From contig OX485805.1 in NCBI GenBank assembly GCA_950295325.1, positions 20,323,501 to 20,387,500 on the forward strand: 64,000 bases of DNA, given 5' to 3'. Numbering within the stretch: the first letter of the stretch is position 1; each line of letters begins with the position of its first letter. Source of the DNA: Polytrichum commune (Eukaryota; Streptophyta; Polytrichopsida; Polytrichales; Polytrichaceae). A model generated the notes under the pieces. The model made no database searches. It had not been told where the DNA came from and was given only the letters and a program-made list of their open reading frames with translations. Positions 10,744-57,535 of the stretch are shown piece by piece. The position numbers and the translations under genes are program-made.

Positions 10744-12101
10744 TCTATTTCAACAAATCTGAGTGACTTTCATCACCAGACCATCAGAAGTACAAAGTCA
10801 AGGAGGTTAGAAATGTGGTGAATTGTGAATTGAAGTTAGTGTGCAGTATCAGATGCGAGCCCTAGTTTTTGTTTCGGGAGGATTAATAGTAAACCTTTGA
10901 GTAGGATTTACAGAAGGTACAACTTTGGTTCAGGTTGTACAGTAGATAAGACTTTGGTTCAGGTATGACTTTGTTTAAGCTTGTCTTGGTCTGCAATCTG
11001 AGAGGGTTGGCCGCTTGGCAAACTAGAACATTTATGGGCACTCATGACCATCTTGACGCGTTCGCAAAATCTGCTGGATGAGTTGCAGTTGCACATGTTT
11101 TAGTTCCGAAACTTGCTTTTCAAACTAATTAGATATCTTCCCAATGTTCTCATGGCAACATGTTTGTGCTTCTATAAATTTCACAACCAACAGATAACCC
11201 AATAAGGCAATCATATAGTGCAAAGAATGATGGCATCAAGAATTGAGGTAGGGAGATTTGACAGTGGAGCAAACAAATGGACCAATCAACACAGCAACTT
11301 GGATGTTTTCATTGATTCTGTACGAAGATTTACTGTACTGTATGCCCCAATAACTTCAAATCACACTATTGTTGGGAATGTAGATTTTGCACCTCGGATT
11401 AATTATTCCAGGCAATTAAATATCACTGTGCATTACACTAGTTTTTTACTCACGAAACTATTACATATCTTTCCCTCCACTAATACATGGCAAAACACTT
11501 TATTGAGGATGACTGGTGCATAGACCAAACTTTGAACAAATATAATTAAATTATCTACAGCTACAAATGTGATTGATTTGATGCATTACAGAAACTTCTT
11601 AACACCCAATCCTAGAATGTGTATAATATCCTTATGAGTACTGTACTTGAGTCCGTACCAATAACTTATCTGTGTGGAATATTGAAAGTCCTTTTGGAAT
11701 ATCGGTTTCTGTTTGAAAAAGTGTTCCCAGATTACATGGTTTACAGATGCCAAAACAAGTGATTGGGAGAACATTTGTGCAGTTTACAGATAACATTGAT
11801 AAAATCTTTTTACAAAACGTAAAGTACAGATCAGTCATCAATCTCTGGACTCAGACTCGGGTCAGTATGTATTATACTTGATGAAACTATTACAATGATT
11901 TTACACGACATCTGCAAGCTTTATAATCTAGTGTATATGTGCATATATGCCACAATGAAAAAACATAAGTGCAAAGTTTCATTTCAAGCATTGTCCGAAG
12001 AGGGATTTCTGGCATGGAATCGTACTCAGATTTTATATATTTTTAGGTTGGAAGTAGTCAGGCTTGTGGTGCAGGTACTCTCAGAATTGCAAACCAAGGA
12101 T
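10744..12101. other. Downstream flank of PARP-finger gene
   Basis: The first few hundred bases are probably 3' UTR. They contain an imperfect duplicated motif (ACTTTGGTTCAGGT near 10921 and 10951). The ORF at 11218-11523 has no recognised domain and no splice context. Nothing else is supported before the MITE at 12102. Confidence 0.4.
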
Positions 12102-12313
12102 CGGGGAGAACCGGCAGTTGGGTACAGATGAACCGGTTGAGTTTGAGAAATAACCGGTTGAAGTTCAAGACTGTAGGAAAATCACCAATCATTTTAGAGG
12201 AATTTATAGAATATACCCCAATTTAATAAAGGAAAACCGGAGGATGTCAACATGTAACCGGTTGGACTTGCAAACACTAGGATCTTAACCAACTATGCCC
12301 AAAAATCTCCCCG
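12102..12313 (+). repeat. MITE-A, full-length copy (212 bp)
   Basis: This is the reference copy of the commonest repeat in the window. It opens CGGGGAGAACCGG and closes AAAAATCTCCCCG, giving inverted termini of CGGGGAGA. The first third has several AACCGGTTGA-like motifs, and the centre has TTTAATAAAGGAAAACCG and ATGTCAACATGTAACCGG. Flanking bases (GGAT / ATCA) give no clear duplication. It is non-coding. Confidence 0.85.
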
Positions 12314-14908
12314 ATCATTGTTGCAAACTGGATCTTTAGACAACTTGTAAATGTTTGGCCAGTGGCTTGATGTTGTGTGGCGTGTGCATAACATTATTCA
12401 GCTCCTATCAACCATTCCATTCTAATAATAATAGTATATTGTTTCACCCGAGTTTTTCATCCTCATTCTCCAGTGCAATGCTTTGTTGTGAGAATAAATA
12501 AAGTATATTTCTGAATGGAATCTGGCTTATTCTTGGCCCCACCCAACATACAAACTCAGTTGAATAATGTTATGAGTTGTAGTTGCAACATCTTTACACT
12601 TTTACATCTAATCCACCTGATTCCAATTCTATGATGTGCATGGCATTGTCGTGCGCACTTCCAACTCCAGAGACAATTTTGGCCCTTGGACCAAATCAAG
12701 AATTCTCTCGAGTCTCACCAACCAACAATTGTGAATCATTTTATTTCAAGTTTTAGTATCGGAGTTAATGCAAATGTGACAAGAGGTCAAAGTTAGGATT
12801 TTCTCATTCTTTCTTAACAATGACATAGTAGTAACTCCCAATCTGTTAACCATTTCTTATTTCTTAAATCATATTTGACGTTGGCTTAATGGTCTTCTAT
12901 CCCAAAAACCAATAAATTGTGTTAACCATTAGAGTTATCCGTAAAGTCCCTCAAAGAGGGACAAAACCGTGGGTTTCATCCTTCGTTAAGAAACCTTTCT
13001 ATTAAAAGCTTGTTAGCCCCCCGTGCGCACGGGGGGGGGGGGGGGGGCACTCATAGTAAATTTTTGGAGACACCTGCGACAACCACTTATTTTCAAGAGG
13101 GGGTATTATCTTTAAGAATTAAAATATTAGGAGTCCTTAAAGTAGAATTTTTTTTACCAAGCTTAAAATTTTAATACCCTATTGGTAATTGGAAATCTAG
13201 AATGCATTCAATATTAATTTCCCTATTTTTAAAAAAACTTTTGGATAGCCTTTAATTTTTAGCCAAAGCAGGGACGGCGTTTGCATTGTGAATTGGCATT
13301 TTAACAATGGGATTGCAATGTTGTGGTATGGCAAGAAGAAAACACAATAGAAATTAATTACACCAACAAGATTGTAATGGAGACTGCAAGTAGAGTACAA
13401 CCTTTAGTGTGCTAAGAAATTGTCCAACATTTGCAAGATAGCAAGAGTTCGTACAACATTAGCAAATGAATTTCAAACATCAAATATTGTCTCAAATATA
13501 CCCCTTCGTGTCGACATTTGAACATAATGGAGTTCAAAGTATCCTTAATGAAGAGAAACCTCCATGGAATAAAATCGAGCCCTCCATCTTCTTTGATGAA
13601 GCAAAATGTGGTCCCTTACACATGTTATATTGCATGATATATTTTTTATAATTGGTTTCCAACATTATTTCGCCCCTATAGTTAATATAGAATTCTTCAA
13701 AATTTTACCTCGAATGAATATTAAATACCCTATATTTCATTGCATATCGTTTCTAAAGTACCGCTAGTGCCCCTCCCCCCCCCTGGGTTGTTAGCTTGTC
13801 GTGTCTTGAAGTCTACTTTGAAAATTGGGTGAAACTTTTTGGACCTCGTATTGTCATCCCAAAATTTTGAAACAACCTTGGAATCTAAAATAGGGTATGC
13901 CCATGGGACCTGTCATCCTAAATCCAGGATCCACTGATGCAAGGGTGGATTGGCCTACCCATCCTAGTAGGACAAGCTAAGAAGCCAATTTTTAATACTC
14001 CAACACCACTCTTTGATTATGGCAATTTAAGCATCAAAAAAACATGGGTGACCTTATGCATAGGCTCTCAAACTCACGTTTTAGCCAACTCAACATGGTT
14101 TTGATGTTGAGACTTTACAAATAACTCCATTGCATCTACGTTTTGAGCACATAGTGCTATCTCAATGTAACAGGTGACTTTTCATTTCATTTTCAATTAA
14201 GAAGAATGACACATTAGGCCCACATACCTCATACAAAGCTCAAGAGCATTCATGGACGCCGATTGTCACCCTACATTTCATAAATCCATCTGCCAAAAGT
14301 TCATCAACATTCTATTACATACACTACACAACATTGTTTGTAACTATCTCCTAGACTTAGGTCCCACACACAACTGAACCGTGTCATGACATTGAGTTCT
14401 TGCCTAAATACTATGTTACCAGGCTAAAATGGGTTGAGTTCACACTGGGAAGCACTTTACACTTCTACTTGAACTACATTGATATGTGCAATTAGGTTGC
14501 CTCTTGACCCATGCAGATTACCTTGGATCAATATTAGATCACAAAAAACCAATTTATTTATTCATCTGAATACCAACCTCAGAAAAAAAAAATTGGTGTT
14601 TATTTCTTATTGTGGTAATAATAGTTGAATTAGTGTGGAATGTCAACAAATCAAGGATGGGGAACCTAATTGCACGTATCCGTGTAAGTATATGGACAAG
14701 GATTTGTCCAATCTTCACACTCATACTCTACAATTACCTTCATTGCCACGTACAAGCAACGGAATCTTCTTCCCTATTGCAAGTTTTGGCAGCGTTCATG
14801 ATCATGAAGACTTTCTAGATAGAATCTGTGACAAACATGACCATTTCCGGAGTCCACCACCTTCTTCATCTTCATAGTCAAGGAGTCCATTAACTTAGAC
14901 ATCTCAAA
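12314..14908. other. AT-rich intergenic DNA without a gene
   Basis: No coding family was recognised. A run of 17 G is at 13031-13047 and a C-rich tract at 13772-13784. Short ORFs (for example 13466-13651) have no supporting features. Confidence 0.5.
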
Positions 14909-19023: not shown

Positions 19024-19101
19024 CTTAGGGTTTGCTGCAGATTTGTCTATGGTACTTTTGTAAATGACACATGAATTGTTTGGGTGGTGGTAGACTATGA
19101 T
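18047..19101. other. Intergenic DNA with a (GA)n microsatellite
   Basis: No gene was recognised. A (GA)n tract of about 28 bases lies at 18994-19021. Confidence 0.55.
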
Positions 19102-19318
19102 CAAAGAGAACCAACAGTTAGTTACAAATGAACCGGTTGAGTTTGAAAAATAACCGGTTGAAATTCAAGACTGTAGGAGAATTACCGATCATGTTAGAGG
19201 AATCTATAGAAGAATATACCCCAATTTAATAAAGGAAAACCGAAGGATGTCAACGTGTAACTGGTGGACTTGCAAACACTAGGATCTCAACCGATTCTTA
19301 TGCCCAAAAATCTCCCCA
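19102..19318 (+). repeat. MITE-A copy
   Basis: This near-complete MITE-A starts at a degenerate CAAAGAGAACC and ends AAAAATCTCCCCA. All internal landmarks are present, including both AACCGGTTGA motifs and CCCAATTTAATAAAGG. It has small insertions relative to the 12102 copy. Confidence 0.8.
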
Positions 19319-19513
19319 GTCACTGATGCTAAGTTAGATGCTGATTCAACAAGTGAGGTAACTTGGACAAAGTGTAGGAACTTACACCAGATCCAGAGTC
19401 CAGATATGGATTTGTAAAGTGGTGCAGTACTTCACTTGTGGGAAGGCGTGCTAGTAAACTATGTAACTTACATAGCACATTTTATCCTGATCCCACAGGA
19501 CCCACGGAGGGAG

Positions 19514-23786: not shown

Positions 23787-24834
23787 CTGCAACAACAAGA
23801 AAATAAATCAGACCTAACTGAAAAAAAAATCCTAAACCAATCTGCATGTACTTCTGCAAAGAAATGACAAATGCCTCACATGAAATGTACTTGATCGACT
23901 TGTGGAAGTGAACACCGCGAACATGGCCATCATGCTCAGATCTGCTTGCGGGATCCAAATTAAAGGCAAGGAAAATGAAACCCCTTCACGATCCAAAACG
24001 CATCCTTCCATGGCACAAAACATCTTCAAAAGCTCACGACGAAACTCTTGCGTTGCAAGCAAGGGGGGGATCTATTGGGGGCACGAGCAATCAGAGCATG
24101 GGTAGTGAAGAAGAGGAGTTGGCAACTAGACGGAGGAAGAGGGGTGTCGGTTCAAGTCACATTCTCCCTCACAATGTCGACGATAGATCAAGCGGAAAGG
24201 GAGGGACTTGTTGTGTCCAAGAGCAACCATAGCATTATGGGCAAGCAGGAAGAGGAGTCACGGTTCAAGGCCAATTCACTCACTATCTTTAATAATATGA
24301 AACATGTATCAATGACCTGGTTAAAACAATTACATGATTGACAGGAGACTTATTTGAAGCATTTTTTGAACTATACATTATCTTTTCGTACATGCATTCC
24401 TGGATGGTCGATGTTTATGAAATTTTTGTTCCTTAGTAGTTGTTTATTCACATGGTTTTAGGAGCATTGTTGTCTCCCACAAGATATATGTGTGGGTGTG
24501 CATGCACATTGTACACACACAAATATATCTATATAGATATATAGATATATAGATATATAGATATATAGATATATAGATATATATAAATATATAAATATAT
24601 AGATATATATAGATATGTTGTTGCCACATCATTCCTCCAATCCCACTACAGTAGCAACAGTTGGAGGCTTTTTTGGAAAAGAGTTAATAAAAACAATAAA
24701 AAATGAAATCCTTCCCCTACCCTCCTTATGATTTTGTCAACTCCCACATGTACCGTATTTGATATAACCATGTGTGGTTAACCACCATGGGGATGTTTGG
24801 TTGTGCTTGTATGGCAGTATTAGAGAGCAGTGAT
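23787..24834. other. Intergenic DNA with (AGATAT)n microsatellite
   Basis: The stretch 24521-24617 is a hexanucleotide-like AGATAT/ATATAG array. The rest has no recognised gene; ORFs between 23900 and 24340 lack domains. Confidence 0.5.
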
Positions 24835-25192
24835 TGGGGAGATTTTTGAACATAATCGGTCGAGATCTTAGTGTTTGCAAGTCCAACCGGTTACATGTTG
24901 ACATCCTCCGCCTTTCCTTTATTAAATTGGGGTATATTCTCCTATAAATTCCTCTAAAATGATCACTAATTTTCCTGCAGTCTCGAGCTTCAACCATTTA
25001 TTTCTCAAACTCAACCAGTTCATTTGTACTCCAGTAACTAACTGCCGGTTCTCCCCGATCATTCATTGTTAGAGAGATTTAAGGCCAAGGTCTAGGGAAG
25101 GAACAAATTCAACCGGTTCATTTGTAACTAACTGTTGGTTCTCCCCGAGCATTCATTGTTAGAGAGATTTAAGGCCAAGGTCTAGGGGAGGA
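24835..25192 (-). repeat. MITE-A copy with duplicated end
   Basis: A minus-oriented MITE-A spans 24835-25057 (TGGGGAGATTTTT ... GGTTCTCCCCG). Its outer end plus about 45 bases of flank is repeated in tandem: AACTGCCGGTTCTCCCCG ... AAGGTCTAGGG occurs at about 25040-25100 and again at 25129-25187. This is probably a local duplication after insertion. Confidence 0.75.
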
Positions 25193-26387: not shown

Positions 26388-26930
26388 TGTCGTGTAAACT
26401 AAGATCGTTAAATACAACAGATCAAGTGTCGTCATCAACATCAATTAGCAAAATAAACATAGCAAACTAATATGCTAAACAACCACCTCTTCAAGATGAG
26501 GGTTTCTCTCTCCAAGCTCAAGAAACTAAGAAGTCTCCTTACAAGCTTAAGAAACTATGAAATTCACACACAAGAGTCAAGCTATCTCTCACTCCACAAA
26601 GGGAGAATCCAAGAGTGCAAGTGATGGAGAAAGAATGCAAAGGCTTTACTCATGATCTACTACACCATAGCCATAAGATAGCAACAACAAGCTCTCTCTC
26701 TCTCTCTCAAAACACACTCACAAGACTTGACTTGACAACAATGGCAAGTCAAAATGCCTTCCTCTCCACATAACCCCAATCCTATGTGAATTTCATTCAT
26801 GGAGTGGATGAACAACTAACTAGGACTCCCAATGGAGTCCATAATCCATCCAAACACACATGGACTCCTAATGGAGTCCATTTACTCCTAATTTGACGTG
26901 ACTTAGCCCCCGATGTCGCCTCACGTGACA
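26388..26930 (-). repeat. Left (3') LTR, 543 bp, chimeric
   Basis: Read on the minus strand it begins TGTCACGTGAGG and ends TACACGACA. It consists of block B (26496-26930, shared with the right end) and block A (26388-26495, 108 bp). Block A is not present next to block B at the right end, so the two LTRs differ in their second half. Confidence 0.65.
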
Positions 26931-26932
26931 GC

Positions 26933-27049
26933 TGTTGTGTAAACTAAGATCGTTAAACACAACAGATCGAATGTCGTCATCAACATCAATTAGCAAAATA
27001 AACATAGCAAACTAATATGCTAAACAACCACCTCTTCAAGTGCCCCCCT
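26933..27049 (-). repeat. Second copy of block A plus polypurine-tract-like run
   Basis: The 108 bases 26933-27040 repeat block A with about four mismatches and lie just inside the left LTR, separated by GC. On the minus strand it is preceded by AGGGGGGCA (27041-27049), which resembles the polypurine tract that normally lies directly before a 3' LTR. The layout A-B-A' is unusual and may mark a recombined or tandem LTR. Confidence 0.6.
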
Positions 27050-27364
27050 AGCAGATAAGGAGCCACTCCAATCGGCTAGGAACAAACACACTCATCGGTA
27101 GAGGTGTTGAACATGATGAAGTTGTTGCTACATCTGTACATATCCAATTGGGTAGTGGTAATCTAAGGAATTAAATTCATGGTTGAGAAAGTAACCCAAG
27201 AACTGTAGGCTGGGTGCAATGTGAGCCCCATTCTTAATCGCCTTCAACAACTTATGTTGAATTCTTTGATAACTCTCCCAATGTGATTTTCAATCCCATA
27301 AAACTTCCGACCAACTAGATAACAACTTCACCACAAAGACATGTGGCAAACATCCACAAAGTCC

Positions 27365-28730
27365 CTAATCATGACCATTAACGGACATGTAGTGAGAGGC
27401 TTTCCGACAACGAGGACAAACCCAATTGCCAGAAGGAAGAGTCAAAAGGGGAGGTGTCAAACATGCCATGTGCCATCCACGTTGACAATGATCGCACAAT
27501 AACATCGTTGCAGCTCCTTTCTTCTCTCCATACACATAACAAGGCAGACCCTGTGGTACAACCGCCAACTCGGGATGCACAGAGCCGTCGATGGGAAGGT
27601 GATATGGAGCACAATTCTTTGAATGCTCATGACATTCCCGTCCATCCTTGCCTTCAAGCAATAATATACCACTTGGTAAAACATCTTTTATCCGCAAAAT
27701 TGTGCGCCCAGCCTTGACATGCAATGTCGTAGGCGCCTCCCGTTGCAAGTAAACATAATCCCCCTTGGAAAATCTACAAACCTGAGGTCGATAAGCTTCA
27801 CTGCGGATCTGGACATACCGTAATGCATCACGATGTTGAGTTATGTTTAAGTTCTCCATGGCCAAAGGTATGGCCTTTTGAAAGAATTCTGCTCGGTCAT
27901 GAAGACATTGAGCCCAAACATCTGGATCATCCAAGTCTACCACAGGAGCCAATTTCTCTCGCACAGAGCTAGGTAAAATTGGTTCCCGTCCATACAAGAG
28001 TTGGTAAAGACTATAGGATGCCAAAGAGGCTTGCCTGCTGAAACGGTAACCCATTGCTATCCATGGTAACATTAAGTCCCAATCGCGATGGTTGCCATGA
28101 AACAACCCATACTTCCGCAAACCGCGCTTGACAGTCTGAACAACTCGTTCAGCTAAGCCATCTGTCTCAGGGTGATCTCTGGAAGTTGTTCGATGATCAA
28201 TCAAAGCCTTAATACACAAAGCCTCGAAAGATCCAAGAAATTCTCTCCCTTGATCCGTCAATAACTCTGCAGGTGCTCCAAACCGTGCCAAAACTCGATC
28301 AAGAAATGCCATAGCCACCAATTCTGAGGAATTTTGGGAAGAGCCACGAGTTCAATCCACTTACTAAAATGCTCCACCATCACAAGTACATACTTTGCCC
28401 CACGTGGAGTGATAGTAAGCGGTCCGGCAAAATCCAAAGACCAACGATATCCCAAGCCCATAATAGGTAAAGGCTGAAATTGAGGTGATAAAGTATTAAA
28501 ACTTGACCTGACCCGGTCACATACTTCACACCTAGAAACATAAGTGGCAACCTGTTGATACATCCCAGTCCACCAATATTGGTTGCGCAACATAGAGTGT
28601 GTCTTGCGCACTCCAAAATGTCCAAACTCCTCGTGCACTTGCCGCACTAAAGAAGCTCTTTGACCTGGCCTTGGAACGATGCGCCTCGTTCCGTTTGGCC
28701 ACACACGAAATAACAAGCCGTTTGCCTAAC
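27365..28730 (-). pseudogene. Integrase with C-terminal PHD finger (Ty3/gypsy pol)
   Basis: The integrase makes the double-strand DNA copy join the host chromosome. The HHCC zinc-binding part (HEEFGHFG ... RCEVCDRV) lies at about 28650-28510. The catalytic core follows, with WSLDFAGPL, LLTDQGREF and DHPETDGLAERVVQT carrying the D, D, E residues. The frame breaks once near 28300, between KIPQN and VAMAFLDRV, and a TAG lies at about 28726. After the core there is a KGDYVYL ... LLLEGKDG module, then at 27550-27410 a PHD-like finger: LPCYVY ... LLCDHCQRGWHMACLTPPL ... GNWVCPRC. The second zinc ligand reads Tyr (CYVY instead of CxxC), a probable G-to-A change. The protein ends NGHD followed by TAG at 27365-27367. 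PHD fingers commonly read histone H3 tails, so it could steer integration; this is inference. Confidence 0.85.
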
Positions 28731-28989
28731 GAAACCTTGTTATTCGATGGCTAACTCTATCTCGCTCCATAGCAGATAGTCCAAGAAGAAATATCCCTTG
28801 TTGAAGTTTGTGCAAGACCGCCTGGTCTTCCCACACATCACTAACAATGACAGATTTATCAACCTCCTCATTTTGTTCTTCCATAAGGATCTCAGCAGCC
28901 CATCCCGACATCATTGTGAGATATGTGGCAGCATGCCAACCTGACACTGACTCACGATCATAATCTCCATGCCACCTGGCTCCAGTTAA

Positions 28990-29566
28990 ATCCTCATCTG
29001 AAGGACTTGGATTGTGAGACAATCCGTCTGCATCCAAGTTGGCAATTCATGTTCGGTGAACAACTTCAAAGTCATATTCTTGAAGTAACAATGCCCACCT
29101 AGCAAGTTTCCCGGTGAGTTTATCTGATTCCATAAGTCATTTTAAAGACTGATGATCAGTCACCAAAGTAAATTTTTGCCCATACAAATAAGGTCGAAAA
29201 TGTGCAATGGCCCAAACGCCCCTAAGGCCTCGCCTTCATAAGAAGAATAATTAGATTCAGCATTATAATTGCTTCTAGATGCATAAGACACCACATATTC
29301 TTTTCCCTCTTCATCTTTCTGTGTCAATACCGCTACCAACCCCACTGCACTCCAATCCGTGTGCAATTGAAAAACTCTAGACACATCTGGGCGTCGAAGC
29401 ACTGGCGCTGAACCGAGCCTCTGCTTCAATGTATCAAATGCTTGTTGTTATTCCCGACTCCAAATCCATGGTTGGTCTTTCCCCGTGAGAATGGTGAGAG
29501 GTTTGGCAATCAAACTAAAATTTTTGACAAACCTTATATAATAATTTGCCAATCCTAGAAATGCCC
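28990..29566 (-). pseudogene. RNase H region (Ty3/gypsy pol)
   Basis: After the RT connection (AFLGLANYY, interrupted at its start by the solo LTR) comes PWIWSRE, then the RNase H domain: FQLHTDWSAVGLVAVL with an active-site Asp, VVSYASRSNYNAESNYSSYEGEA with the Glu, and VTDHQSLK. The frame shifts near 29225, where AFGPLHIF should read WAIAHFRPYLYGQKF. At 29137-29139 TGA replaces the expected Trp of SLKWLMES. A further TGA lies near 29040. The domain would remove the RNA strand during reverse transcription. Confidence 0.85.
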
Positions 29567-30512
29567 TGTCGCAACCCTTGCTAGGTCCCTTAACAATCTT
29601 GCCAATTTTCATTTCTAGCAAAGATTACGAGCGCTAACCCTTCGCATTCCGCCATGCTAATGGATAGCTCCTCTTACCCCAAACCAATAGTTCATAGGAG
29701 GGAACCAACCCTCCTACTTTGCTTTCGGGACTCACCCCTTAATCGGTAACCCATTTCCCCAATGTGGACTTCCATCCATGGAAGTCCAATCCTATGTTGA
29801 TCATCGCGTTGCCGGAGCAACACTACAACAACCCGAACCATACTAGGCAACTATGGCCTCACAATAGGCCAAAGCCCATGGAGGCCTTGCCATTCGGCCT
29901 CGGGTGGGTGAGGCCACACCACCTCACCCATATAAGCCTCTAGGACTTTACACAGGGCCCCTACCCCACCGTGAACCAACCTCTTGTCTCTCTACCAAGA
30001 GTTGGGGCCAAGTGGACATTCTCCCTTAGCCGCTGGGCTAAGAAGCCTCTAGCAGCTTCAGACCATCATAACTTCCTTGTATGATGTCTTCATCTACGTT
30101 TCACGTAGATGCCGATGGACTCCTCACTTGCCCCATTTGGGCAAGTTATGAGGACGTTATGCCTCTTTGAACCTTGGCAGTCCCGGGAGTCACTCCCAGG
30201 CACTGCTGCACCAGGGCGCTGTCCTGGGACAGCGCCCCACTCAAATGGCCATAACTCCTAGCTCACACCTCCGATTGAGGTGTTCTTGAGCATTCTAGAA
30301 TCACCACGCCATGAGCTACGCATAGCTCATGGCCTTACCCTCATGCTTCCTAGTCTCAGTGGGTGGGAGGCGTTCCCAACGCCCGGGGCCCTCACCCACA
30401 CTAGGATCACTTGGGCCCTCTCACCAATGGCGCCACAAGTCCCGGGTGTCACTCCGGGATCCCCCTTGTGCCCATGGTGTTTCGGGCATTCCTTATGGAG
30501 AGGTGCGCGACA
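29567..30512 (+). mobile_element. Solo LTR (946 bp) inserted in the pol gene
   Basis: The insert begins TGTCGCAACCC and ends GTGCGCGACA, with TGTCGC/GCGACA inverted tips, and is flanked by exact 5 bp copies of TGCCC (29562-29566 and 30513-30517). Removing it restores the RT-RNase H connection (DVPRLRA-FLGLANYY). TG...CA ends plus a 5 bp duplication define an LTR. A TATA-like CCATATAAGCC near 29931 suggests plus orientation. It has no coding capacity. A 980 bp relative lies at 45253-46232. Confidence 0.9.
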
Positions 30513-31444
30513 TGCCCGAAGTCGTGGTACATCACTAGGTGCGGGAATTTTATGCAAAACATCCACCTTCGCCTGTTGCACACCAAGATCGTCAGGAACA
30601 ATCATGTGGCCTAAATAAGGCAATTGATCATAGAAAACTTACATTTGCCATGATGTAAATGGAGTCCCCACCATTGTAATCGTTCAAATACCGCTTGCAA
30701 ATGTCTCACATGATCATATGGACTATTACTAAAGATGATACCATCATCAATGTAACATGTAGCAAACGGTAAACCAGCCAATAATTGGTCCATCACCCGC
30801 TGAAATTCAGTTGGTGCATTTTTGATACCAAATTGCAAAAATTTCCAATGATAAAGTTCATCCTTGCCATCTTTATCAATTTCCCAAAATGCGGTCTTCA
30901 CCCGATCACCCAACAACAAAGGTAATTGATAATAACCAGACCTCAAATCCACAGTGCTGAAGATTCTAGCAAATCCCAGTGCATCAAATAACTCCTCTGG
31001 TATCGGTATTGGATATCGATCCGACTTGGTCTTGCTGTTGACTGAACGATAATCACCACACATCCGTTTTTCTGTCCAGTTGCCAAAGATATATTTCTTT
31101 GAAGGCATAACCGTGGCACAAGCATACTCTCCATTGAAGAGTTCAATCAATTCCGCTGCCAATAATTCTTGACATCGAGTTTGAACACCCAACCTTTCAG
31201 ATGTACTAAGTCTGTACGGCCGTCTGAAAATAAGATGGTCGTCCTCGAGTTGAATACGAACATGTTTATCTTTATATGCTTCAAGATCATGAAGACTAAA
31301 GGCAAAACAATTATGGTAAGAGCGAATAAATGCCCGTACCTTTCGTGTTTCGACACCAGTAAGTTTTGGCCCCACTTCAATTGGCCAATCGTCAAACTCC
31401 GTGATTTCCTTCTTCATAGAAGGATTGCCACTTGGTGCCAGCAC
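30513..31444 (-). pseudogene. Reverse transcriptase (Ty3/gypsy pol)
   Basis: This region copies the element RNA into DNA. The open frame 31444-30611 contains the classical Ty3 RT blocks: RRPYRLS, ATVMPSKK, KRMCGDYRSVN, PIPIPEELFDALG, FSTVDLRSGYYQ, FLQFGIKNAPTEFQRVMD and the catalytic YIDDGIIFS. It then loses frame near 30635, where KFSMINCLI should read KFFYDQLPYLGHMIV; the correct frame continues 30630-30520 with HKIPAPSDVPRLRA up to the solo LTR. The N-terminal DWPIEVGPKLTG segment links it to the region behind the methyltransferase. Confidence 0.9.
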
Positions 31445-31798
31445 AGCTTGTGATTGCTAGTCCGTGAAGAGGGCAACACCTTTGCCCCCATCATCTGCAC
31501 TTGAATCCAAATGCTTATCTTCTCCACTACAATCAGTTTGTGTAGTTACATAGCTACCCACATATGAAGTGTCACCAAGAAATAGAAGTGGAAACATTTT
31601 ATGTGCCTCTAACTTCCTAAAATCTTAGGACAAAACCGTAAAAACACGTTGGGCTCGAAGCTCTTCCGCAACATGTTGTTTCAAAGAAAATAATCACTTG
31701 GTGTCATTGACCTCCATGTGATCCTTGGATTGCAGCTCCATTGCCCCCTGACCATTGTTCTCTGCCCTCAGATGAAGCAATTGGTCATTCATACGTTA
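31445..31798 (-). other. Linker between methyltransferase and RT
   Basis: The same minus frame as RT continues upstream with stops at several places (TAA at 31796-31798 and a TAG near 31457). The readable parts (for example MELQSKDHMEVND and LGDTSYVGSYV) show no recognised domain, and may include the processing boundary between the two enzymes. Confidence 0.45.
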
Positions 31799-32830
31799 TT
31801 GAGCAGCAAGACAAATTCCAATTATCCACACAATGCTATTGAGATCCATAGCTTGTCCCAATAGGAAACGTCTCTGACCAACCTGAAGCCCATGAACAGC
31901 CGTGGTGCCTGTAGGAAAACCCATGGCTCATTCCCGCTCATTTGCCGTAGGCTCATCATGAGTTTGGGATTTTTGAATTCCAAACCATGTCTGGTCCACG
32001 AGATCGAAATGCAAAAGACAGTGAATATGTCACAAAAGTAGGTAGTGCACCTCTCGGAATTCCCACCTTGTAAATTAATGCAAATGGCAAGGTGTCATCC
32101 TTGGTAACTGCCAAAGAAATACGATGAGCATCTAAAATGTCATCCACCTTGCGATTCATAAGGCGGGGAATGCGGGCGATCGCCGCTGAAAGCACCTGAG
32201 GTGATACCAAATTGGTCTAAAACCAACGAGGCCGATGAGCAAAGAATCCCAAGGATGCAGCATCCAGAAATGTTGGGGTACCCAAAATTTGGTTAATGTA
32301 CTCACCATCCTTCACCACTTTGTGCCGTGTATCACCCAATAATGGCACATTTTCAAAAATGTACCCTGGCGGATTTGATTGGTGGGTAAACCACCATTGT
32401 GTCAATCGCATCAAATCCGCGAACAAACTAAACCTATGATCATCCAAACCCTGGCCAGTTCCTGCCCGTGAATGGCCTTGACAAGGTCATCCTGCAATAA
32501 TTAAATCCACGTGGCCCAATCTTCTCAAATCCTCATCACTAATCATAGTGACATCTGGAGGAAGTTGACCACAACATCCAAGAATCGCAGAGGCTGACAA
32601 TTGTGCAGGGTACCTCAACAACAATTGTTGAATGTGGTGTCGGACGGCTCTGTTGGCTGCATATCCAATATCCACATGAATATATCGCATAACTGTAATC
32701 CTAGCCTCCAACACTGCCGCCAAACCTGTGCCAATGCCCCAAAGATTTCTACAAGGACAATAGCTTCAGGTGGTGGTTGCCAACGAATGGATTGAGCAAA
32801 AGAAAATGAGGATGACGTTGGAGGTGTCTC
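31799..32830 (-). pseudogene. C5-cytosine DNA methyltransferase domain inside the retrotransposon
   Basis: Conserved motifs appear in canonical order. Motif I: VLVEIFG + GTGLAAVLEA, with one G missing in a GGGG run near 32736. Motif II: RYIHVDIG. Motif IV: VDLIIAG-stop-PCQGHSRAG, with the catalytic Cys kept. Next is GLDDHRFSLFADLMRL (motif V). Motif VI: YIFENVPLLGD. Motif VIII: FFAHRPRWF-stop-TNL. Motifs IX-X: EPTANERE-stop-AMGFPTGTTA ... QRRFLLGQAMDLNSIVWIIG. Stops at 32487-32489, 32217-32219 and 31928-31930 each sit where Trp is expected, and a second frameshift lies near 31970. The enzyme would add methyl groups to cytosine C5 in DNA. The order I to X is not the permuted order of plant DRM enzymes, so the domain was not taken from DRM; DNMT3-, Dnmt1/CMT- or bacterial-type origin is open. 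It lies between protease and RT, an unusual place for a captured domain. Confidence 0.88.
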
Positions 32831-33819
32831 TCCAAGCCCAAATCCGCTATAATATGTCGACAATGGTCGGATAACTCCTTAGGAGTACGCCATGGTGGAG
32901 GTGGATCCTTGAAATGTTGAGCAAAAATTTGTAAAGATGGCAAAATTTGTTGTTCTACTGCATTACAAGCGTAGTCCAATGTTTCCTCCAACAAAACTGG
33001 AGCACAAGGTAAATCCGCAACTGAACCGCTGCAACCAAACATTGCCTCCGCAACCATAGTCATAGAAGTAGCTGCAAATGCTACAGGAATAAATACCTTC
33101 ATGCCATCTCCAGAAGACCATCCCGGTCTAATCCATGCCTCTTCAGTCCAATTATCCAAACCAAAGCCAAGTGGATAAAGAGCTTGCTGACCAACAAGTA
33201 TATCATAGTTGGTAGCATTAGTAACAACACACTTCATTGACAAATGAGTGTAGGTAGGTCATGCCCCCACATTAAAAATCAAATGTAGAGGTGTCTTGGT
33301 GTAACCTGTTGCACGTTCAGTGCCCCCTACTGAAGTCACAATTGTGAATGGACAAGGATTTAAGTTTGCTGGCGTCAATCCAAGACTGTCAGCAAGTCCT
33401 TTGCCAATCATAACCAGTTGAGCACCGGAATCCATCATAACTCTCAGTGGTGTAGCACGAATAGTAGGTATATCCGCGCGTGAAACGACAAACAAAGATT
33501 TATCGTTCATCAGCCGTAGAACTCCAGGTTGCAAATTATGCCGCTCGCGAGCAGGCCTTGCAGAAATATCTGCAAGATATGCCGCTCCCGCTGCATAATT
33601 CGAAAAGGACGTGTCCACTGCTGAAATTGTTGATGGAGGAATATTAGTGTGCTTACCAAAAGCAATGATCGCCGCATCCGCAAGGCTCGCTCGCAAATTG
33701 GCTAAGTCCTCCACCTCCTCAGCCACAGGTACGTCAACAACAGCTTGGGATACTTGAAGGGATGGCAAATCCGCCTTTCCTTCTAACATTTTCCCAACTA
33801 AATGGAAAACTTCAGCAGG
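32831..33819 (-). pseudogene. Aspartic protease and following linker
   Basis: The protease processes the Gag-Pol polyprotein. Its catalytic site is the RVMMDSGAQLVMIG stretch with Asp at about 33432. Behind it are VTSVGGTERATGY and, beyond a TGA at 33259-33261, NATNYDILVGQQALYPLGF, the usual flap and C-terminal part of Ty3-type proteases. The frame is the same as Gag, separated by TAG at 33820. The 350 bases after the protease (SSGDGMKVFIPVAFAATS ... FKDPPPPW ... ELSDHCRHIIADLG) have no recognised domain and lead into the methyltransferase. Confidence 0.85.
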
Positions 33820-35553
33820 CTAGAAATCCGGAGCCATCAACTCCGAACCTGAGAAAATTGGCATATGGAGAATCTTATATGCCAATGCCTGCGTAACATC
33901 CCTCAAGATGGAATTCCCATCTCTCAAAGTTACAGGGTCTTTAGCCCCAACAACAGTGGTGTCTACCAATCCAAATGAGAGAGGTAAACGTGCTTGACCA
34001 ATTTGATCCGCTGGTCCGGCATGGCGAGGATGTGACACCTTGTTGCTACCACCACTTGTAGAAGCCACCGCATTTGCCAATGTTTGTGATCGAGTAGAAG
34101 CCGCAGCCACCACCTCTCCAGATGCCCCAAACATATACATGTCCGAACCCGTGGTGCCACCACCCGCATGCGGCTCAGAAATTTGAGCAAAAGATGCAGA
34201 AAATTTGAGCTTTTGCTCAAGCTCTGCCACCTTAGCCTCAAGACTCTGCTCCCTTGGAGATTTGCCAGTGACATATCTGGCAGGCCGCATCTCATGATGA
34301 AGTTGGAAACAATGATCCACATCGTGATTAGTGTCACTACAATGGTTACATTTCAATTGTCTCTTCTTAGAATTGTCCCCTGTCTTTACTGGTTCTATCT
34401 TTTGTTTTAATTTTCCCAAAGGCTGGATTTTCTTCTTCTTAGGACAATTGGGATCATTCTTCGAATGACCAACTTCTCCACAACCCCAACAATGCAAAAT
34501 CTTTTGCTCCTTAACGGTTTGAGTCTCAGCTAAACTACTAGTAGCTGTGACAATTCTTCTTGATTTCGTACTCTCTGTCATCCAAGATACCATGTCTATG
34601 GCATCGTGTTGACAGAGAGCCCGATCACATCTCTCAACCACGGCAAACGCTTGTGCAAGCGTAGCTCTGCCTTCGTAGTCGAGGATAATCCGAGGGGATG
34701 CCAACTCAAGTAGCCGCTTGTCAATCTTAGACAAAAAAATTTTGACAAGCTGACTCTCAGCAAAAACACCTCCCGACTCAACAGCAAAGCGTGCAAGTCG
34801 CGTATACATGGTCCGTGGAGTGTCATCCTTCTCTCGGCGGAAATCTTGAATGTGCTGCATCTGGTCTCGCCGAAATCCACCATACTCCAACTCTAAATGT
34901 ACGACAAATTCAGCAAGGGGATTAAATGGAGGTGGTGGACCAACAGCCGTCAATGCTGCCTGTGTAGCACGTGCCATCTGTGAAAGGGTAGCCGTGCTAC
35001 TGCCAGCCACTATTGGCCCAAGTGCCAGTTCTTGGTCCTTAGACTCCTCTGGTGGATCCTCCTCCTTTAAGGTGGGTGGAGCTAAGGTGGCAATCGCCCC
35101 ATCCTTAAGGGCTGAAATAAGCTCAACCCGGGCCTCCCAATACTGCTCCACCCCCCGAAGTTGTCGCTGATGACCCTCTGTCCAGCGTTTGTAAGTTTGG
35201 AATGCCTCATGCTCCAAATGCTAAGGCAGAAGTTCAAAGGCATACCAATCATTGAAATTGGAAGACCTTTGGCGTTTCTCCTTAATCCAGGTACGAAACT
35301 GGAGTTTCCAATTGGGCAAGGAAATGCCCCCAGCTCGACCTGAGAACCGATCACGCACTGAACCGTGGTGATCGTCGTCCATTTCGTCGAACGTGCCAAC
35401 ACTCCAAATCCGAAGCCTACTAGTAGTGTCCAACGCCGAAATAGGCTCAAAAGCCTCGTTGGTATCTACCTCTGGCTCAAGATTTGTGGTATGCACGTCC
35501 TCCAAGTAATCTGGTGATGGAGATCGATAATATCGGCTCCTAGTTTGCACCAT
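33820..35553 (-). pseudogene. Gag polyprotein with two zinc knuckles
   Basis: The frame starts at ATG 35553 (MVQTRSRYYRSPSP) and runs to TAG 33820-33822, broken once by TAG at 35221-35223. The retrotransposon Gag core is at about 34900-34600 (EFVVHLELEYGGF ... LVKIFLSKID). It is followed by two CCHC knuckles: CWGCGEVGHSKNDPNC near 34490 and CNHCSDTNHDVDHC near 34350. The first has an extra residue before the last Cys. Gag packages the RNA in virus-like particles. Both stops are TAG and each could come from CAG by one C-to-T change. A coiled-coil-like segment (LEAKVAELEQKLKF) follows the knuckles. Confidence 0.88.
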
Positions 35554-36743
35554 AAAATAATCACTTGAGTACCGGCAACTATCTACAAGGTAATGGTAAC
35601 CTGCACCTGTTGCGGGCTATCTAAATAGCAATCCCTTGCCAAATGCCAAGTGTTTATTTAGGCCCCCATAATTCCAAAATTGTGCAAAGGTTTGAGATTG
35701 GTAATTAAAATTAAAAAAATCAGCGTTGAAAATGTTAATTTCTAAGGTGATTATGGACTCCAATCAACAAACTAGTTGCACCAATGGACTCCTAGGAAGA
35801 TTTCACACAAATTAGGCTCAAATTTTACTCCGTTCGGAGTTAATTTGCTCCCAAAAACAAAAATCAGCGTTGAAAATGTTAATTTCCAAGGTGATTATGG
35901 ACTCCAATCAACAAACTAATTGCACCAATGGACTCCTAGGAAGATTTCACACAAATTAGGCTCAAATTTCACTCCGTTCGGAGTTAATTTGCTCCCAAAA
36001 ACAAAAATCAGCGTTGAAATTAATAATTTCAGCAATGATTTTGAATTCCAATCAACAATCCAATTACACCATTGGATTCCTTGGCAAATTTCACTCCAAT
36101 CGGAGCTAGTATGCCCCCAAATTTGAACCTCAAAGTTTGTGAGAATTAAATGCCAAGTTTGAAAGGTGAAAGTAAAAATGTAAAAATTTTAAAAAAATGT
36201 AAAAAAAAAGTGAAAAGTAATTGTAAAACAAAGTTGGTAAAAGTAATGTTGGAAAACAAAAACAAAAACAAAAAATAAAAATTTTAAAAAACAAAACCTT
36301 ACCTGCCTCTGCCAGGGCCTGGCTGGCACCCGCCCGCCCATGGGGCCCGGCTGACGCCCGGCCTGCCAAGAGCTTCAGAGCTCTAGGAGGGTCCGGTGAG
36401 CTCCGGATCCGTCCGGAGCTCAATAAAAAATTAAAAACAAGTCGGATATTTTTTTTTTGTTTGTTTTAAAAAAGAATTAAACTTTGCTTCCACAATTTGC
36501 AAGCAAGAAAGATGTGACTTGAGATTCCATTTGGTCTCAAGATTCAACCATCAACAATTGAAGAAAACACAAAGAGACACCAAAAGAGAAATGCGGAGAT
36601 TTCTCTCAAAATCTTCTTGAGGGTTGCAAGGAATTGCAAACTAAGCTTTTATACACTTGTATCACTCATTTGCTCTTACTACTGGGCTATTCTAGCTCCG
36701 AAATACAACCAAAAATGCAAAAATAAGCCAATTGTTGTCAAGT
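35554..36743 (-). other. Leader/right-LTR second half of the Ty3 element, with tandem repeats
   Basis: Between the gag ATG and block B lie three copies of a 144 bp unit (starts at 35721, 35865 and 36009; the third diverged). There is also an AT-rich tract with a GC-rich island (36303-36412), and next to block B a TATA-like GTATAAAAGC on the minus strand near 36650. The latter suggests promoter and R-U5 sequence of the 5' LTR. The LTR/leader boundary and primer-binding site could not be fixed; GCAACAGGTGCAGG near 35610 (minus) was considered, but no tRNA match is known to me. Confidence 0.55.
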
Positions 36744-37176
36744 ATGAGGGTTTCTCTCTCCAAGCTCAAGAAACTAAGAAGTCTCCTTACAAGCTTAAGA
36801 AACTATGAAATTCACACACAAGAGTCAAGCTATCTCTCACTCCACAAAGGGAGAATCCAAGAGTGCAAGTGATGGAGAAAGAATGCAAAGGCTTTACTCA
36901 TGATCTACTACACCATAGCCATAAGATAGCAACAACAAGCTCTCTCTCTCTCTCAAAACACACTCACAAGACTTGACTTGACAACAATGGCAAGTCAAAA
37001 TGCCTTCCTCTCCACATAACCCCAATCCTATGTGAATTTCATTCATGGAGTGGATGAACAACTAACTAGGACTCCCAATGGAGTCCATAATCCATCCAAA
37101 CACACATGGACTCCTAATGGAGTCCATTTACTCCTAATTTGACGTGACTTAGCCCCCGATGTCGCCTCACGTGACA
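36744..37176 (-). repeat. Right (5') LTR, block B
   Basis: These 433 bases begin (minus) TGTCACGTGAGGCG and match 26496-26930 base for base by eye, except two fewer bases in a (TC)n run. They directly abut MITE-A sequence at 37177. Beyond 36744 the similarity to the left LTR stops after a shared CTTGA. Confidence 0.85.
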
Positions 37177-45252: not shown

Positions 45253-46232
45253 TGTCGCAACCCTTGCTAGCACCCCTTAACAATCTTGACCATTTTCAAA
45301 TTCTAGCAAGGGTCACAAGCGCTAACCCTTCGCAATCTGCCATGCAAATGGTTAACTCCTCATAGCGCGGACCTCTTTAGCTCATAGGTGGGGGACCAAC
45401 CCTCCTTTACATTCAGGACTCTCCCCTTAATCGGTAGCCCATGATTAGATGTGGATTTTTATTCATGGAAGTCCAATCTTAAGTTGATCATCGCGTTGCC
45501 GGAGCAACAATACAACAACTGGAACTATACTAGGCAGGCTATGCCCCTTCATTGGGCCAACATCCGTGGAGGCCGTATTGTTCAGCTTTGAGTGGGTTCG
45601 GTCGGCCACGCCGCCTCACCCATATAAGTCTATAGGATTTTTGGCAAGACCCCTATTCCACCATAAAAAAAAACATTTTGTCTCTCTCCTAAGAGTTGGG
45701 GCCAAGTAGACATTTTCCCAAAGACGTTGGGCATGGAAGCCCCCAGCAAATTCAGACCACCATAACTTTGTCATGTGATCTTTGCTTCTATTAGGCAACA
45801 ACTTCATCGTCATCTATTCTTCATGTAGATGCCAAATGACTCCTCACTTGCTCATTCAAGCAAGTATTGAGGAAGTTATGCTGTTTCTAACCTCGGCAGT
45901 CTCAGGAGCCACTCCTAGGCCATTGTTGTCCGAGGACGCTATCCCGGGACAACGCCCCACTCAAATTGCCATATCTCCTAGCTCACACCTCCGATTGAGG
46001 CATTCTTGAGCATTTTACAATCCGGACATCATAAGCTACTCATAGCTCATGGCCTTACTCTTGTGACTCCTAGTCTCTGTGGGTGGGAGGCGTTCCCATT
46101 GCCCGAAGCCCTCACCCACATTAGGATCCCTTGGGCCCTCTCACCAATGATGCCACAAGTCCCGGGTGTCACTCCAGGGTCCCCCTTGTGCCCATGGTGT
46201 TTCGGGCACTCCTCATGGAGAGGTGTGCGACA
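45253..46232 (+). mobile_element. Second copy of the 0.95-0.98 kb LTR
   Basis: It begins TGTCGCAACCCTTGCTAGC and ends GAGGTGTGCGACA, and aligns along its whole length with the solo LTR at 29567-30512, with many substitutions and small indels. The flanking five bases differ (GCGGT and TCGAC), so it may be one end of a rearranged element or an old solo LTR. Confidence 0.8.
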
Positions 46233-49200
46233 TCGACAAAGGAAAACCGGGGTGTGGCGGAGTGGTAGGTGGGATGCCAGGTGGTAGTAGATCAAAGCAC
46301 GTAATGGAGCACGTGAATGAAGGAGCAATGGAACATGTAACTAGAGCAACAGTGGAGTAGCTAATTGGTTACCAACAAAGTGGAGATGGAGAGCACAAGA
46401 GCGATGCAACTAATACAACAAAGTCGGGGATGAAACGTGAGACAATACGTTCAAGAGCAAAGCAATCATAGTGACAGGGTGCAAGTGGGTGTGACAATGA
46501 AGATTGCTAGCAGGAGCAACAATGGAGTTGGTAATCGGACAATGGGTAGCAACATAAGAGGAGGGACGAAGCACACAAAAGTGGGGATGATGCATGAAGG
46601 GGCCAACAACAACTACAACAAAGTTGGGATGAACCGCAAGGCGTCATGTACAATGATAGAGCAAGGTGGCAAGGAGGGAAAGACAATGATTGAAATGAAG
46701 GAAACGATGGGGTGCAATTAAAGGTTAGGATTTGTGTAGAGTCACCAAGCAAGCATTCTCAGATTCGGCAAGAGCATGTGAAGAGCGTGAGGAAGCCAAA
46801 GACAAAGAAGCAGCTGAAGCCGAGGGAGGAAGATGGAGCTCCCATCCCCTCAAGAACACACTATGGCTATGAGAACGAGGAGCAAGACTTGGGAACATTG
46901 GTTAGGTTGCAAGAACAAAGAACAAGACTTGAGAACATCAGTAAAGTACAGGAATGAGGAGTGAGACTCAGGATCGCTAGTAGGGCCATGAGAACAAAAG
47001 CTCATGATCGGGAACACACCAAGGCTTGGGAACAAGGGTAGAGAGCCCTTATTTACACAAACATGTGATTAGATGAATCGGTGAATGGATGAGCCTTAAA
47101 TGGAAATCCAACCACCAGATGAATTTTGATACTAAAAGGTATGTAGATAGGAAAAACATTTTAAGTAATTTAGTTTTGGGATTAGTAATTGAGTAATTTA
47201 ATATTGTGATGAATTTGATTAATCTTTTAATTTCATTTTATACTTAGATAAATTTATAATTTTAGCCACCATGAATATTTCTAAAAATAAGAAAATTACC
47301 CAAATGTCAAATACTATATAAGCATACCAAGATAAGGGCCTTATTACACTTCATTTGGCCCCATGCATCTTACATGAGTGTTACTTTGTTGCCTTGGGAA
47401 TGTTACCTTACTACCTCGCAAATATTACCTTGCTACCCTAGAAATTGGCACCCACGTGCGTTAACATTTAATCGGCACTCATGATGTACTAATTTTATTG
47501 GCACCCGGGGTGTATAAAGTTGGTATTGACAAAGGAATTGAATGCCCATGCTCATCAAGGACAAGGAGCACGCATTCGAATTCACCTAAGATTTAAAATC
47601 AATTGATTTGATATCTATATGGAAATTTTGCTCAAGCCGTAGTGATACAAAATAAGATTTTTTTTAAAAAGAAAAAGAAATTGCATGAATTTAAGGACAA
47701 GGGACTATGGTAAGCCACTACCCAAAGGCGTGCCTCGAGAAGATATTGGGTGTTCTTATGTCTCTCATTAACAAAACGTACTTGGAGAATGACATAAGAG
47801 ATCTAATCGAGGCAAAGTGAAAACCATCGTTAGAAATGATATTCAAGGGTGGAAGACAATTCATACAAGGCCATTGAGTAGGCCAAATCTATCATCACCT
47901 CATCCTCAAGTTTTAAATTAAAATTTCACATTATAAGGGTCCTCAATCAAAACAGATAGGGTTAAACACTAATAAATAAAGGAATAAAAGATTCTTGAAT
48001 TTAAAGATCGTTTTAACTCCAACACATGTCTTGACAATCATAGATCATTTGAAGGAAGGTATTGATTCATGTATTGATATTAATATTCTAGCTTCCACCA
48101 ATTATATTTAGTAGCTTTTGAAAGAATTTAAATGAGATCTTTGACCAACGAACTTGAAATCAAGATGGGAGGATTTTTTTCCACTTAGTATATGCATGTT
48201 TTAAAGGGGGTGATGAATCAATTACACTTGGTAATGACAGTGGAAGGTATAATCCTAGTTCTATCCTAAAGACACCTAACCTTTATATAAGGACCTTGGG
48301 AGAACATAAGCTTGTAAGAACTATGAGCATCCAATTTTAGGAGAACTCCTTTGAGTCTTGGAGAAACCTTTCTTAAAAAGGGAAACATACGTTTGAAAAT
48401 GCAATCAAGATATCAAAAAGGTTTAAGGAATTCATTTGATTGATCAAGTGTTAGGAATGGTGCCGGAAGATTAAGTGTTATAATAAGATAATACTTTGAA
48501 CCTTTGAGGAGTAGAAAACACACCTAGAAGATGATACTTCTCTTCACCTCTAGATTATTAGAGGGAGCCTAAGTTCAAGACTTACATGCAAATCATCACC
48601 TTATCAATATTTGATTTTTAGGATTGTTTCAAAGTCTAATTCTTATGGGAGTGATGCTCTTATAACCAGTTAACATCGGATTACATCGTCTAAGGCTGAG
48701 AGTTGAAGGTCACCTCAACAATTTGGACCCCCTATCCCCTCGGCCATTAGACTACCACCTACATGCGCGGTAATGATCAAGTGTGTTGATGGCTTCTTTG
48801 ACCAAGGCTACATGGCCGGATTAGCTAACCTGAATCGCACCCGGCTCGATTTCATGCTAGTTTGCTTGTTACTTTCTAAATTAACAATGAATAAACATAG
48901 CACAACCACATTTAGTGTAGGAAAAACAATCTATATAACCAAATTTTAAAACACTACACATGTACATACATGTGTTCAATTATTTATTCATTAACATATG
49001 TACCGAGGGAAATTGTATCCCCCAACATTTGAAAATTAACTCGAGTTGCGAGCTAAACGTGGGCATGATAGCTTTTTATTGGTTCCAAAATGACACTTGG
49101 CTAAAAGGATAGAAACACGTATGATGGAAATGATGAAGTTGGACATGGTTGGTGATGGGACATGACTCCAGCCTTATACAAAATTTGTCAGTTGAGGAAC

Positions 49201-56702: not shown

Positions 56703-57535
56703 GCCACTGCAATGAATAGCTTAACATAGTGACCGACTTGAGTCATTCATCTTGGGTAGCTTTGATCATTGGGTTCATTTAGTGCAGAAACTACACTGCT
56801 AAATGCAATTAGCTTGCCCTCACTAATTTACTGACGTTCCACACTATTTGAACTGTTGAATGTCCATTTACCAAAGTACACGAATCGTTTTGTTACTGTA
56901 GTTGCTCTACGGATGAACAATAAAACTTATAAGTTGTTGTAATGTGGTTTTGACCAAAGGTAATTTTCATGGGTAAAAAAGATAACCTATTCGCGGAGGC
57001 AGTTTTGATTGCACATGTCAGTGTAAACTTTCCTAGTGAAATGAGAAGTTTGAATTTCAAATGACTTTTATTGGAAACGGCACGAAACCAAATATTTTGA
57101 AGTTATGTGGATTTTAGATGGATCCGTGATGGATAATGACGTGAATGAATGAGAGGGCAACTTGTAGTCAGGGGGGTGGGATTTGAAACAACTGCCTAAG
57201 GAAACTTTAGGTAGCCGAACCCATGGGCGTGGATCCAATCAAGTGTTGATTGGGATAAAGGGACATGGGTATGAGATACATGGTACATGCAATAAAAACA
57301 AACAAACAAATTGGACTACTTTGAGTTTATGTACGTACATTTCACCTTTGACTCTTTCAAGGGCCACACACTACCCTCAAATTTCAACAACAATTTCTCT
57401 CAATATTAATAAAGAAAAAAAAAGACAAGAAAGCCAATCGGACAAAGTGGCTTGGCATGTCACGACCAACTCCTCATCAAACGTCATGTATATGACCTAT
57501 CCCGTTGCCAACACATTTGCCATATTGTCTATGAT
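56703..57535. other. Region without a recognised gene
   Basis: No supported feature. The ORF at 57183-57587 runs into MITE-A and has no domain. Confidence 0.45.

Follow-up and report, generated by a model that had tools for sequence, protein, structure and literature searches.

DNA methylation silences plant transposons. It is therefore paradoxical that a lineage of transposons should retain, under selection, a de novo methyltransferase of its own: what does such an enzyme do for the element that carries it? The question is raised by a 64,000-nucleotide stretch of the moss Polytrichum commune (positions 20,323,501 to 20,387,500 of contig OX485805.1, assembly GCA_950295325.1), here called the window, in which a Ty3-like retrotransposon occupies 26388-37176 of the minus strand. 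The original prediction, made from the letters alone, had placed C5-methyltransferase motifs in canonical order, on one strand, between the protease and the reverse transcriptase (RT) of this element, and the motif order and both neighbours (PF13650 for the protease, PF00078 for RT) were confirmed. The profile search that it had proposed returned the C5-methyltransferase family PF00145 at 32486-32220 (minus strand; E = 7.5e-7, 29.3 bits against a curated cut-off of 22); the three remaining pieces of the domain gave no profile match when scored alone. The motifs run from motif I (from about 32761, across a frame change) through PCQ (32486), ENV and HRPRW to a block holding motifs IX and X (31927-31799). 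This copy of the domain (31799-32761) is broken, with two in-frame stops in its main frame (32765-31959) and with motif I and the C-terminal block, at its two ends, in another frame. When X was written at the two stops, the main frame matched 52 proteins, the best of them with 85% identity (E = 2e-141).

To place the domain among known methyltransferases, 19 relatives were combined with the window frame into a 20-sequence profile, which was matched to solved structures. This ranked DNMT3A/3B first (2.4e-14), followed by DRM (8e-8), HhaI (4e-5) and DNMT2 (0.0025). An AlphaFold2 model of the relative P0003 reached a mean predicted local distance difference test (pLDDT) score of only 63.8 and a predicted template modelling (pTM) score of 0.66, and in a Foldseek search with this model DNMT3A or DNMT3B filled all of the best 50 of 177 rows (E up to 0.001). 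By profile and fold order, rather than by a tree, the domain is thus closer to DNMT3 than to DRM, DNMT1, DNMT2 or the bacterial enzymes, and the rearranged motif order of DRM was not seen, the order being canonical. Across the 20 aligned relatives there is almost no variation in PC, in ENV or around motif VIII, and together with the profile match these motifs identify the domain as a C5-methylase. A chance match was ruled out by the PF00145 score, the homologue matches, the structure-profile ranking and the ratio of nonsynonymous to synonymous substitution rates (dN/dS) given below. Sequence comparison therefore confirms that 31799-32830 of the minus strand encodes, between protease and RT, a predicted C5 methyltransferase domain of DNMT3 type.

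The domain is not peculiar to this locus. At least 123 places in the 408-Mb genome matched PF00145, all above the cut-off (123 scored of 353 candidates), a count that is unsorted and may include host genes; 18 of them lie in a stop-free frame of at least 1350 amino acids. Twenty copies were fetched, picked for long frames, so that the sample is biased towards the domain. They fall by sequence into three families, one (L011-L019, L028, L029), two (L020-L027) and three (L030), and the window element is of the family-one kind. Two open reading frames (ORFs), both whole in ten of the 20 copies, make up the coding part: ORF1 (Gag-protease-DNMT3) spans 1366-1386 codons and ORF2 (RT-RNase H-integrase-PHD finger) 1045-1048 codons in the ten whole copies; L028 is short of 30 codons at the start of ORF1, and L030 has an internal stop in it. 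The protease-RT-RNase H-integrase order, with an rve integrase core, is that of Ty3/gypsy elements. The PHD finger was recognized in one copy per family (E = 1e-9 to 1e-10), and it stands where a chromodomain might follow the integrase; no chromodomain was found in the three ORF2s scanned. The genome-wide copies of the same order, which the original prediction had named as the check on a chance insertion, rule out an insertion private to the window copy. The domain would thus be a standing part of the Gag polyprotein in a Ty3-like lineage, of which the window element is one broken copy.

Codon comparisons between families 1 and 2 (three pairs) gave dN/dS values of 0.12 for DNMT, 0.10-0.11 for PHD, 0.04 for RT and 0.02-0.03 for integrase, and 0.59-0.66 for the stretch just past DNMT; dS for DNMT between these families is 2.2-2.4, a rough range for the method. 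Within family 2 the DNMT value was 0.16, and many pairs involving L030 or L002, a relative described below, were saturated. On these comparisons the domain is conserved under purifying selection.

How much of the enzyme is made relative to the polymerase may be set by the junction of the two ORFs. In all 20 copies the boundary reads TAG followed by CAATCA, CAACCA, CAATTA or CAGCCA, all of them CARYYA, and the same UAG-CARYYA occurs in L004, L005, L006, L010 and L002; in the window it is TAG CAATCA (31451-31459), with RT in the same frame. This motif, which we take to be the tobamovirus readthrough context, directly terminates the long ORF1 frame in 17 of the 20 copies, the exceptions being L026 and L029, which stop earlier after a frame change, and L030 with its inner stop. 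In the ten whole copies ORF2 continues in the ORF1 frame past the UAG. A separate start for ORF2 is disfavoured by its first methionine, which lies at codon 117 in family 2 and L002, despite those at codon 14 in family 1 and codon 5 in family 3. The boundary UAG is probably a leaky stop, and the domain belongs to ORF1 with Gag and protease, ahead of this stop, and not to Pol. Because DNMT3 ends ORF1 ahead of UAG-CARYYA, it is expected at the level of Gag, and RT only upon readthrough; the stop context thus suggests a dose at which the enzyme accompanies Gag.

The methyltransferase had also been described as lying within the same terminal repeats as the rest of the element. That is so, but the repeats are not plain long terminal repeats (LTRs), of which no bounding pair was found in the copies. 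The order is A1-internal region-B1-A2-B2 in 16 of 20 copies, a split direct repeat with A of 295-561 bp and B of 105-233 bp (nine copies measured). In the window, A1 (36744-37176) forms the 5' end and begins TGTCACG, as does the inner A2 (26496-26930; 99.3% identical to A1 over 441 columns); B1 (26933-27040; 93% identical to B2 over 120 columns including flank) is separated from A2 by the two bases GC (26931-26932), found also in the joints of other copies, and B2 (26388-26495), ending in ACACGACA, forms the 3' end. Both ends were set by the empty site in four copies of the repeat of about 220 bp that the element entered. This dispersed repeat stands at 12099-12317, 19095-19325, 24831-25063 and 57533-57751, its copies being 85-91% alike, and another copy hosts the element.

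The inner B|A joint reads CGACA-GC-TGTCA (palindrome CGACAGCTGTCA), that is, two element ends separated by two bases, and B2 adjoins A2 without extra bases in nine of nine copies. The family-1 joint (29 bases, at most three mismatches) occurs at 139 places in the genome, and its reversed control at 0. All 18 copies with both ends readable have TG..CA ends and a perfect 4-bp target duplication (nine compared by script, nine by eye); 15 are full-repeat copies and three (L011, L012, L021) have A-internal region-B only. For L012, which has two A-like starts, the start with the matching flank was chosen, and no 5' end could be located for L024 or L027. The B|A joint is absent from four of the 20 copies, L011, L012, L021 and L027, which have the A-internal region-B order. 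We lean slightly towards regarding L011, L012 and L021 as full-repeat insertions that were later shortened by B1-B2 recombination, rather than as inserted one-repeat circles: direct repeats of the size of B are a usual substrate for such deletions, and the perfect duplications around these three copies are predicted by both accounts.

Within each of nine copies A1 and A2 are 99.3-100% and B1 and B2 98-100% identical, which indicates that both are renewed at every insertion. A polypurine tract (GCTAGGGGGGCA, 27041-27052, alike in nine of nine copies and in L002) immediately precedes B1, so the standard product of reverse transcription would be [B A]-internal region-[B A]. The integrated form would then be this product permuted at B|A, and a two-repeat circle opened at B|A would yield exactly that order; a DIRS-like, template-driven route would likewise give B2 directly after A2. 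The A-internal region-B-A-B repeats, TG..CA ends and 4-bp duplications together suggest that a DDE integrase uses a permuted intermediate as its substrate, and such ends and duplications on DIRS-like repeats break the usual link between split repeats and tyrosine recombinases. No Pfam match to a tyrosine recombinase was found in five ORFs of the three families at E values up to 0.01. We consider it very unlikely that the B-A-B order reflects no insertion mode at all and is a tandem duplication inherited from a single ancestor. A duplication could produce A-B-A-B, with B2 directly after A2 as in nine of nine copies; however, all three families share the order, which has also been reported for the alga Klebsormidium nitens in the main text of de Mendoza et al. 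(2018; PMC5890265), the target duplications lie outside B2 in 18 of 18 copies, and the paired repeats are nearly identical within each of nine copies.

The start of reverse transcription also appears to be encoded by the element. Directly after A1 the copies carry ACTTG..., the exact complement of which lies within A, with a length of 13 bases in family 1, 15 in family 2 (13 in L025), 13-14 in family 3 and 13 in L002; the primer-site sequences vary between families, and their partners co-vary. In the window the primer-binding site ACTTGACAACAAT (36731-36743) adjoins A1 and is the exact reverse complement of 36976-36988 within A1, the self-primer sequence and probable start of the RNA. Base shuffles reached a match of the observed length in 0 of 2000 trials for each of three copies, one per family, the longest shuffled matches being 12, 11 and 13 bases versus 13, 15 and 14 observed in families 1, 2 and 3. 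These elements therefore probably prime their own reverse transcription by self-complement, as far as can be judged from base pairing. Priming by a transfer RNA (tRNA) was set aside for a site that lacks a TGG start and fits the element's own repeat, no tRNA comparison having been run.

Relatives were found in Marchantia polymorpha (10 of 26 rows of one search), in Volvox reticuliferus, in L002 and in many metagenomes. An integrase-PHD query matched 402 proteins, and among the best 120 of the 402, which were classified, DNMT lies before RT in two, between RT and integrase in 18 and in a piece without RT in 26; 30 more are RT-to-integrase pieces without DNMT, with little room upstream, and the other 44 are integrase pieces in which neither RT nor DNMT is present. 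Of the pieces in P0054-P0199, just four reach further than 350 residues ahead of RT, each of them with DNMT. The green algae named were Volvox reticuliferus (P0129, a DNMT piece) and Haematococcus lacustris (P0082, with no DNMT in its piece). The proteins with DNMT between RT and integrase form a sister group, and the two placements separate in unrooted trees of DNMT (35 rows; support 100/99) and of RT (32 rows; 99/95), in which P0091 is a long branch. One capture followed by a later move, or two captures, would both fit. In two proteins of the sister group, P0139 and P0154, motif IV reads ECQ instead of PCQ, with the cysteine kept.

L002 (CADCWO010000201.1) is a plant-type retrotransposon of the same lineage that is binned with a Synechococcales metagenome-assembled genome (MAG), and this cyanobacterial binning is probably wrong. 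Its ends overlap by 127 bp, as the k-mer assembly of a repeat gives, so the circular contig is no evidence for circular DNA. P0003 is filed under a bacterial MAG. A viral source was rejected: the lone confirmed IMG/VR locus, L001, has 41% identity over 77 residues, and with its many long overlapping frames we take it, without annotation, for a phage.

How might these parts work together? Most ribosomes would stop at the UAG, so that the particle would receive the methyltransferase at the dose of Gag; a minority would read through into Pol. Inside the particle, reverse transcription would begin from the element's own RNA, and the methyltransferase could place 5-methylcytosine on the new DNA, or on the landing site. 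The PHD finger may steer the integrase to a histone mark, and the integrase would open an intermediate, either circular or permuted as in DIRS elements, at its B|A palindrome before inserting it. What is most probably gained is the arrival of new copies in chromatin that is already marked, with less detection or less damage to the host. We favour, with reasonable though not high confidence, this account of a DNMT3 lineage at Gag dose with a leaky stop, self-priming, permuted-intermediate insertion and pre-marking. A bolder proposal, which we advance only tentatively, is that it amounts to a distinct mode of insertion, in which a Ty3-type DDE integrase does not act on the ends of linear complementary DNA but at a palindrome inside an intermediate that is circular or permuted. 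The elements would carry DNMT3 at Gag dose together with a PHD reader, so that a single particle could methylate DNA and also read the site where it lands, and the lineage, with DNMT3 in two placements, would reach from green algae to land plants.

Several observations weigh against the favoured account. The flanks of the window copy, GAGG on the left and AAGG on the right, agree in three of the four bases of the target duplication, and the self-complement exceeds the longest shuffled match by just one base in families 1 and 3. Since the copies were selected for the domain and long frames, they cannot tell how many relatives lack it. In P0075 a single frame runs without a stop through Gag, protease, DNMT3 and RT, which shows that not every relative has the stop. 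Within family 1 the DNMT dN/dS values are 0.67 and 0.31 (two pairs, few changes). Nine copies have observed/expected CpG ratios of 0.67-0.75 and L002 one of 0.78, versus 0.46 and 0.53 in two background stretches of the window, and this lack of depletion speaks against a simple footprint of heavy self-methylation. Finally, a yeast assay of the K. nitens enzyme detected no methylation, a result called inconclusive in the main text of its report (PMC5890265).

The last two points would also suit a domain kept as a nucleic-acid-binding part of Gag or as an RNA modifier and not for DNA methylation, as would its seat in ORF1 beside Gag. We think this improbable, given how little PC, ENV and the stretch around motif VIII vary among the 20 aligned relatives, and given that the nearest solved relatives are the DNA enzymes DNMT3A/3B, ahead of DNMT2. 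Selection might alternatively favour restraint over stealth, with an element that methylates and silences itself and curbs its own spread to the benefit of the host. De Mendoza et al. raise this option (PMC5890265, main text); the many long-framed copies that are nearly identical point to recent spread, however, and we regard it as unlikely. Compared with these alternatives, pre-marking of new copies remains our preferred reading, and because Marchantia polymorpha has copies, the paradox is open to plant genetics. Elements of this sort may be miscounted or overlooked in surveys that tally DNMT genes or that search for plain LTRs.

The remainder of the window element is also degraded. Its Gag part (33823-35553), delimited by reading frames, has two Cys/His knuckles and is broken, with additional stops in the gag/protease part; it gave no Pfam gag match, and its zinc-knuckle matches were weak and below the cut-off. 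A protease piece with DSGAQ lies at 33262-33819 (PF13650, E = 4.2e-5), and RT, at the start of ORF2, at 30614-31456 (PF00078, E = 2.4e-25). The RNase H region (28989-29624) is in pieces that were identified by visual comparison with ORF2 of other copies, in which PF17917 was found, and is unscored in the window. The integrase pieces (27368-28725) comprise an H2C2 part (28725-28261; PF17921, E = 5.7e-19) and, in a different frame, a DDE core (28351-27368) with a weak PF00665 match (7e-5, under the cut-off) compared to 1e-13 to 1e-14 in other copies; the C-terminal PHD finger past the integrase is at 27407-27523 (PF00628, E = 3.1e-9). A 0.95-kb insert (29567-30511), flanked by GGGCAT and with short GTCGC/GCGAC inverted ends, separates RT from RNase H; it has a 79% identical copy at 45253-46233 and looks like a non-autonomous DNA transposon. 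Between A1 and ORF1 the window copy has 144-bp tandem units (35715-36146), the third only 62% alike. Outside the element, open frames at 2146-3438 resemble, by eye, a LINE-type reverse transcriptase.

Several known systems share single features with these elements. Like DIRS and PAT elements they have split direct repeats in A-internal region-B-A-B order, but the copies scanned lack a tyrosine recombinase match and have TG..CA ends and target duplications. DRM belongs to the same DNMT3 superfamily and was the second-best profile match, whereas the moss domain keeps the canonical motif order. With tobamoviruses they share the UAG-CARYYA context and an open frame downstream, the moss motif standing instead between Gag-protease-DNMT3 and Pol. 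Tf1/Sushi and the plant element Tcn1 are stated to self-prime in the available text of PMC6317226; the moss elements show the same type of self-complement and differ in having a PHD finger and no chromodomain match.

The closest counterpart is KnitGypsy-Dnmt3 of K. nitens, a Gypsy-type element with DNMT3 whose description (PMC5890265, main text) corrects the original prediction, which knew of no such case as standard in plant Ty3 elements: the kind was already present in green-lineage Ty3. Compared by repeat order and domains rather than by sequence, the two share an unrearranged DNMT3, DIRS-like repeats and purifying selection on the domain, but DNMT3 is in the Pol ORF there and at the end of ORF1, before the UAG, in the moss. 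That main text, as distinct from its supplements and figures, which were not covered, makes no mention of PHD, readthrough, target site or Marchantia. It also describes the dinoflagellate elements SymbioDIRS-Dnmt3 and SymbioLINE-Dnmt, which likewise carry cytosine methyltransferases, the former with a DIRS-type repeat order, but which use a tyrosine recombinase or LINE machinery where the moss element has an rve integrase and 4-bp duplications. A 2025 survey places DNMT3 members inside streptophyte and dinoflagellate retrotransposons (PMC12344493, available text), and a Marchantia methylome study puts the number of DNA methyltransferases at five, in the classes MET, CMT and DRM (PMC5784723, in the part drawn on here). 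Methylase-encoding Ty3/Gypsy and DIRS elements have been reported from green algae, charophytes and others and as absent from land plants, such as tracheophytes (PMC6338049, available portion), a statement that the liverwort copies qualify. In the open-access literature (supplements, subscription papers and preprints were not covered) no description was found, for this lineage, of the leaky stop, integrase PHD, self-priming or target duplications, or of a sister group with DNMT between RT and integrase. Thus, DNMT3-bearing Ty3-like elements were already known from KnitGypsy-Dnmt3, and what is added to them here is the placement of DNMT3 in ORF1 before a UAG, the PHD finger, probable self-priming, the combination of split repeats with target duplications, and the sister group.
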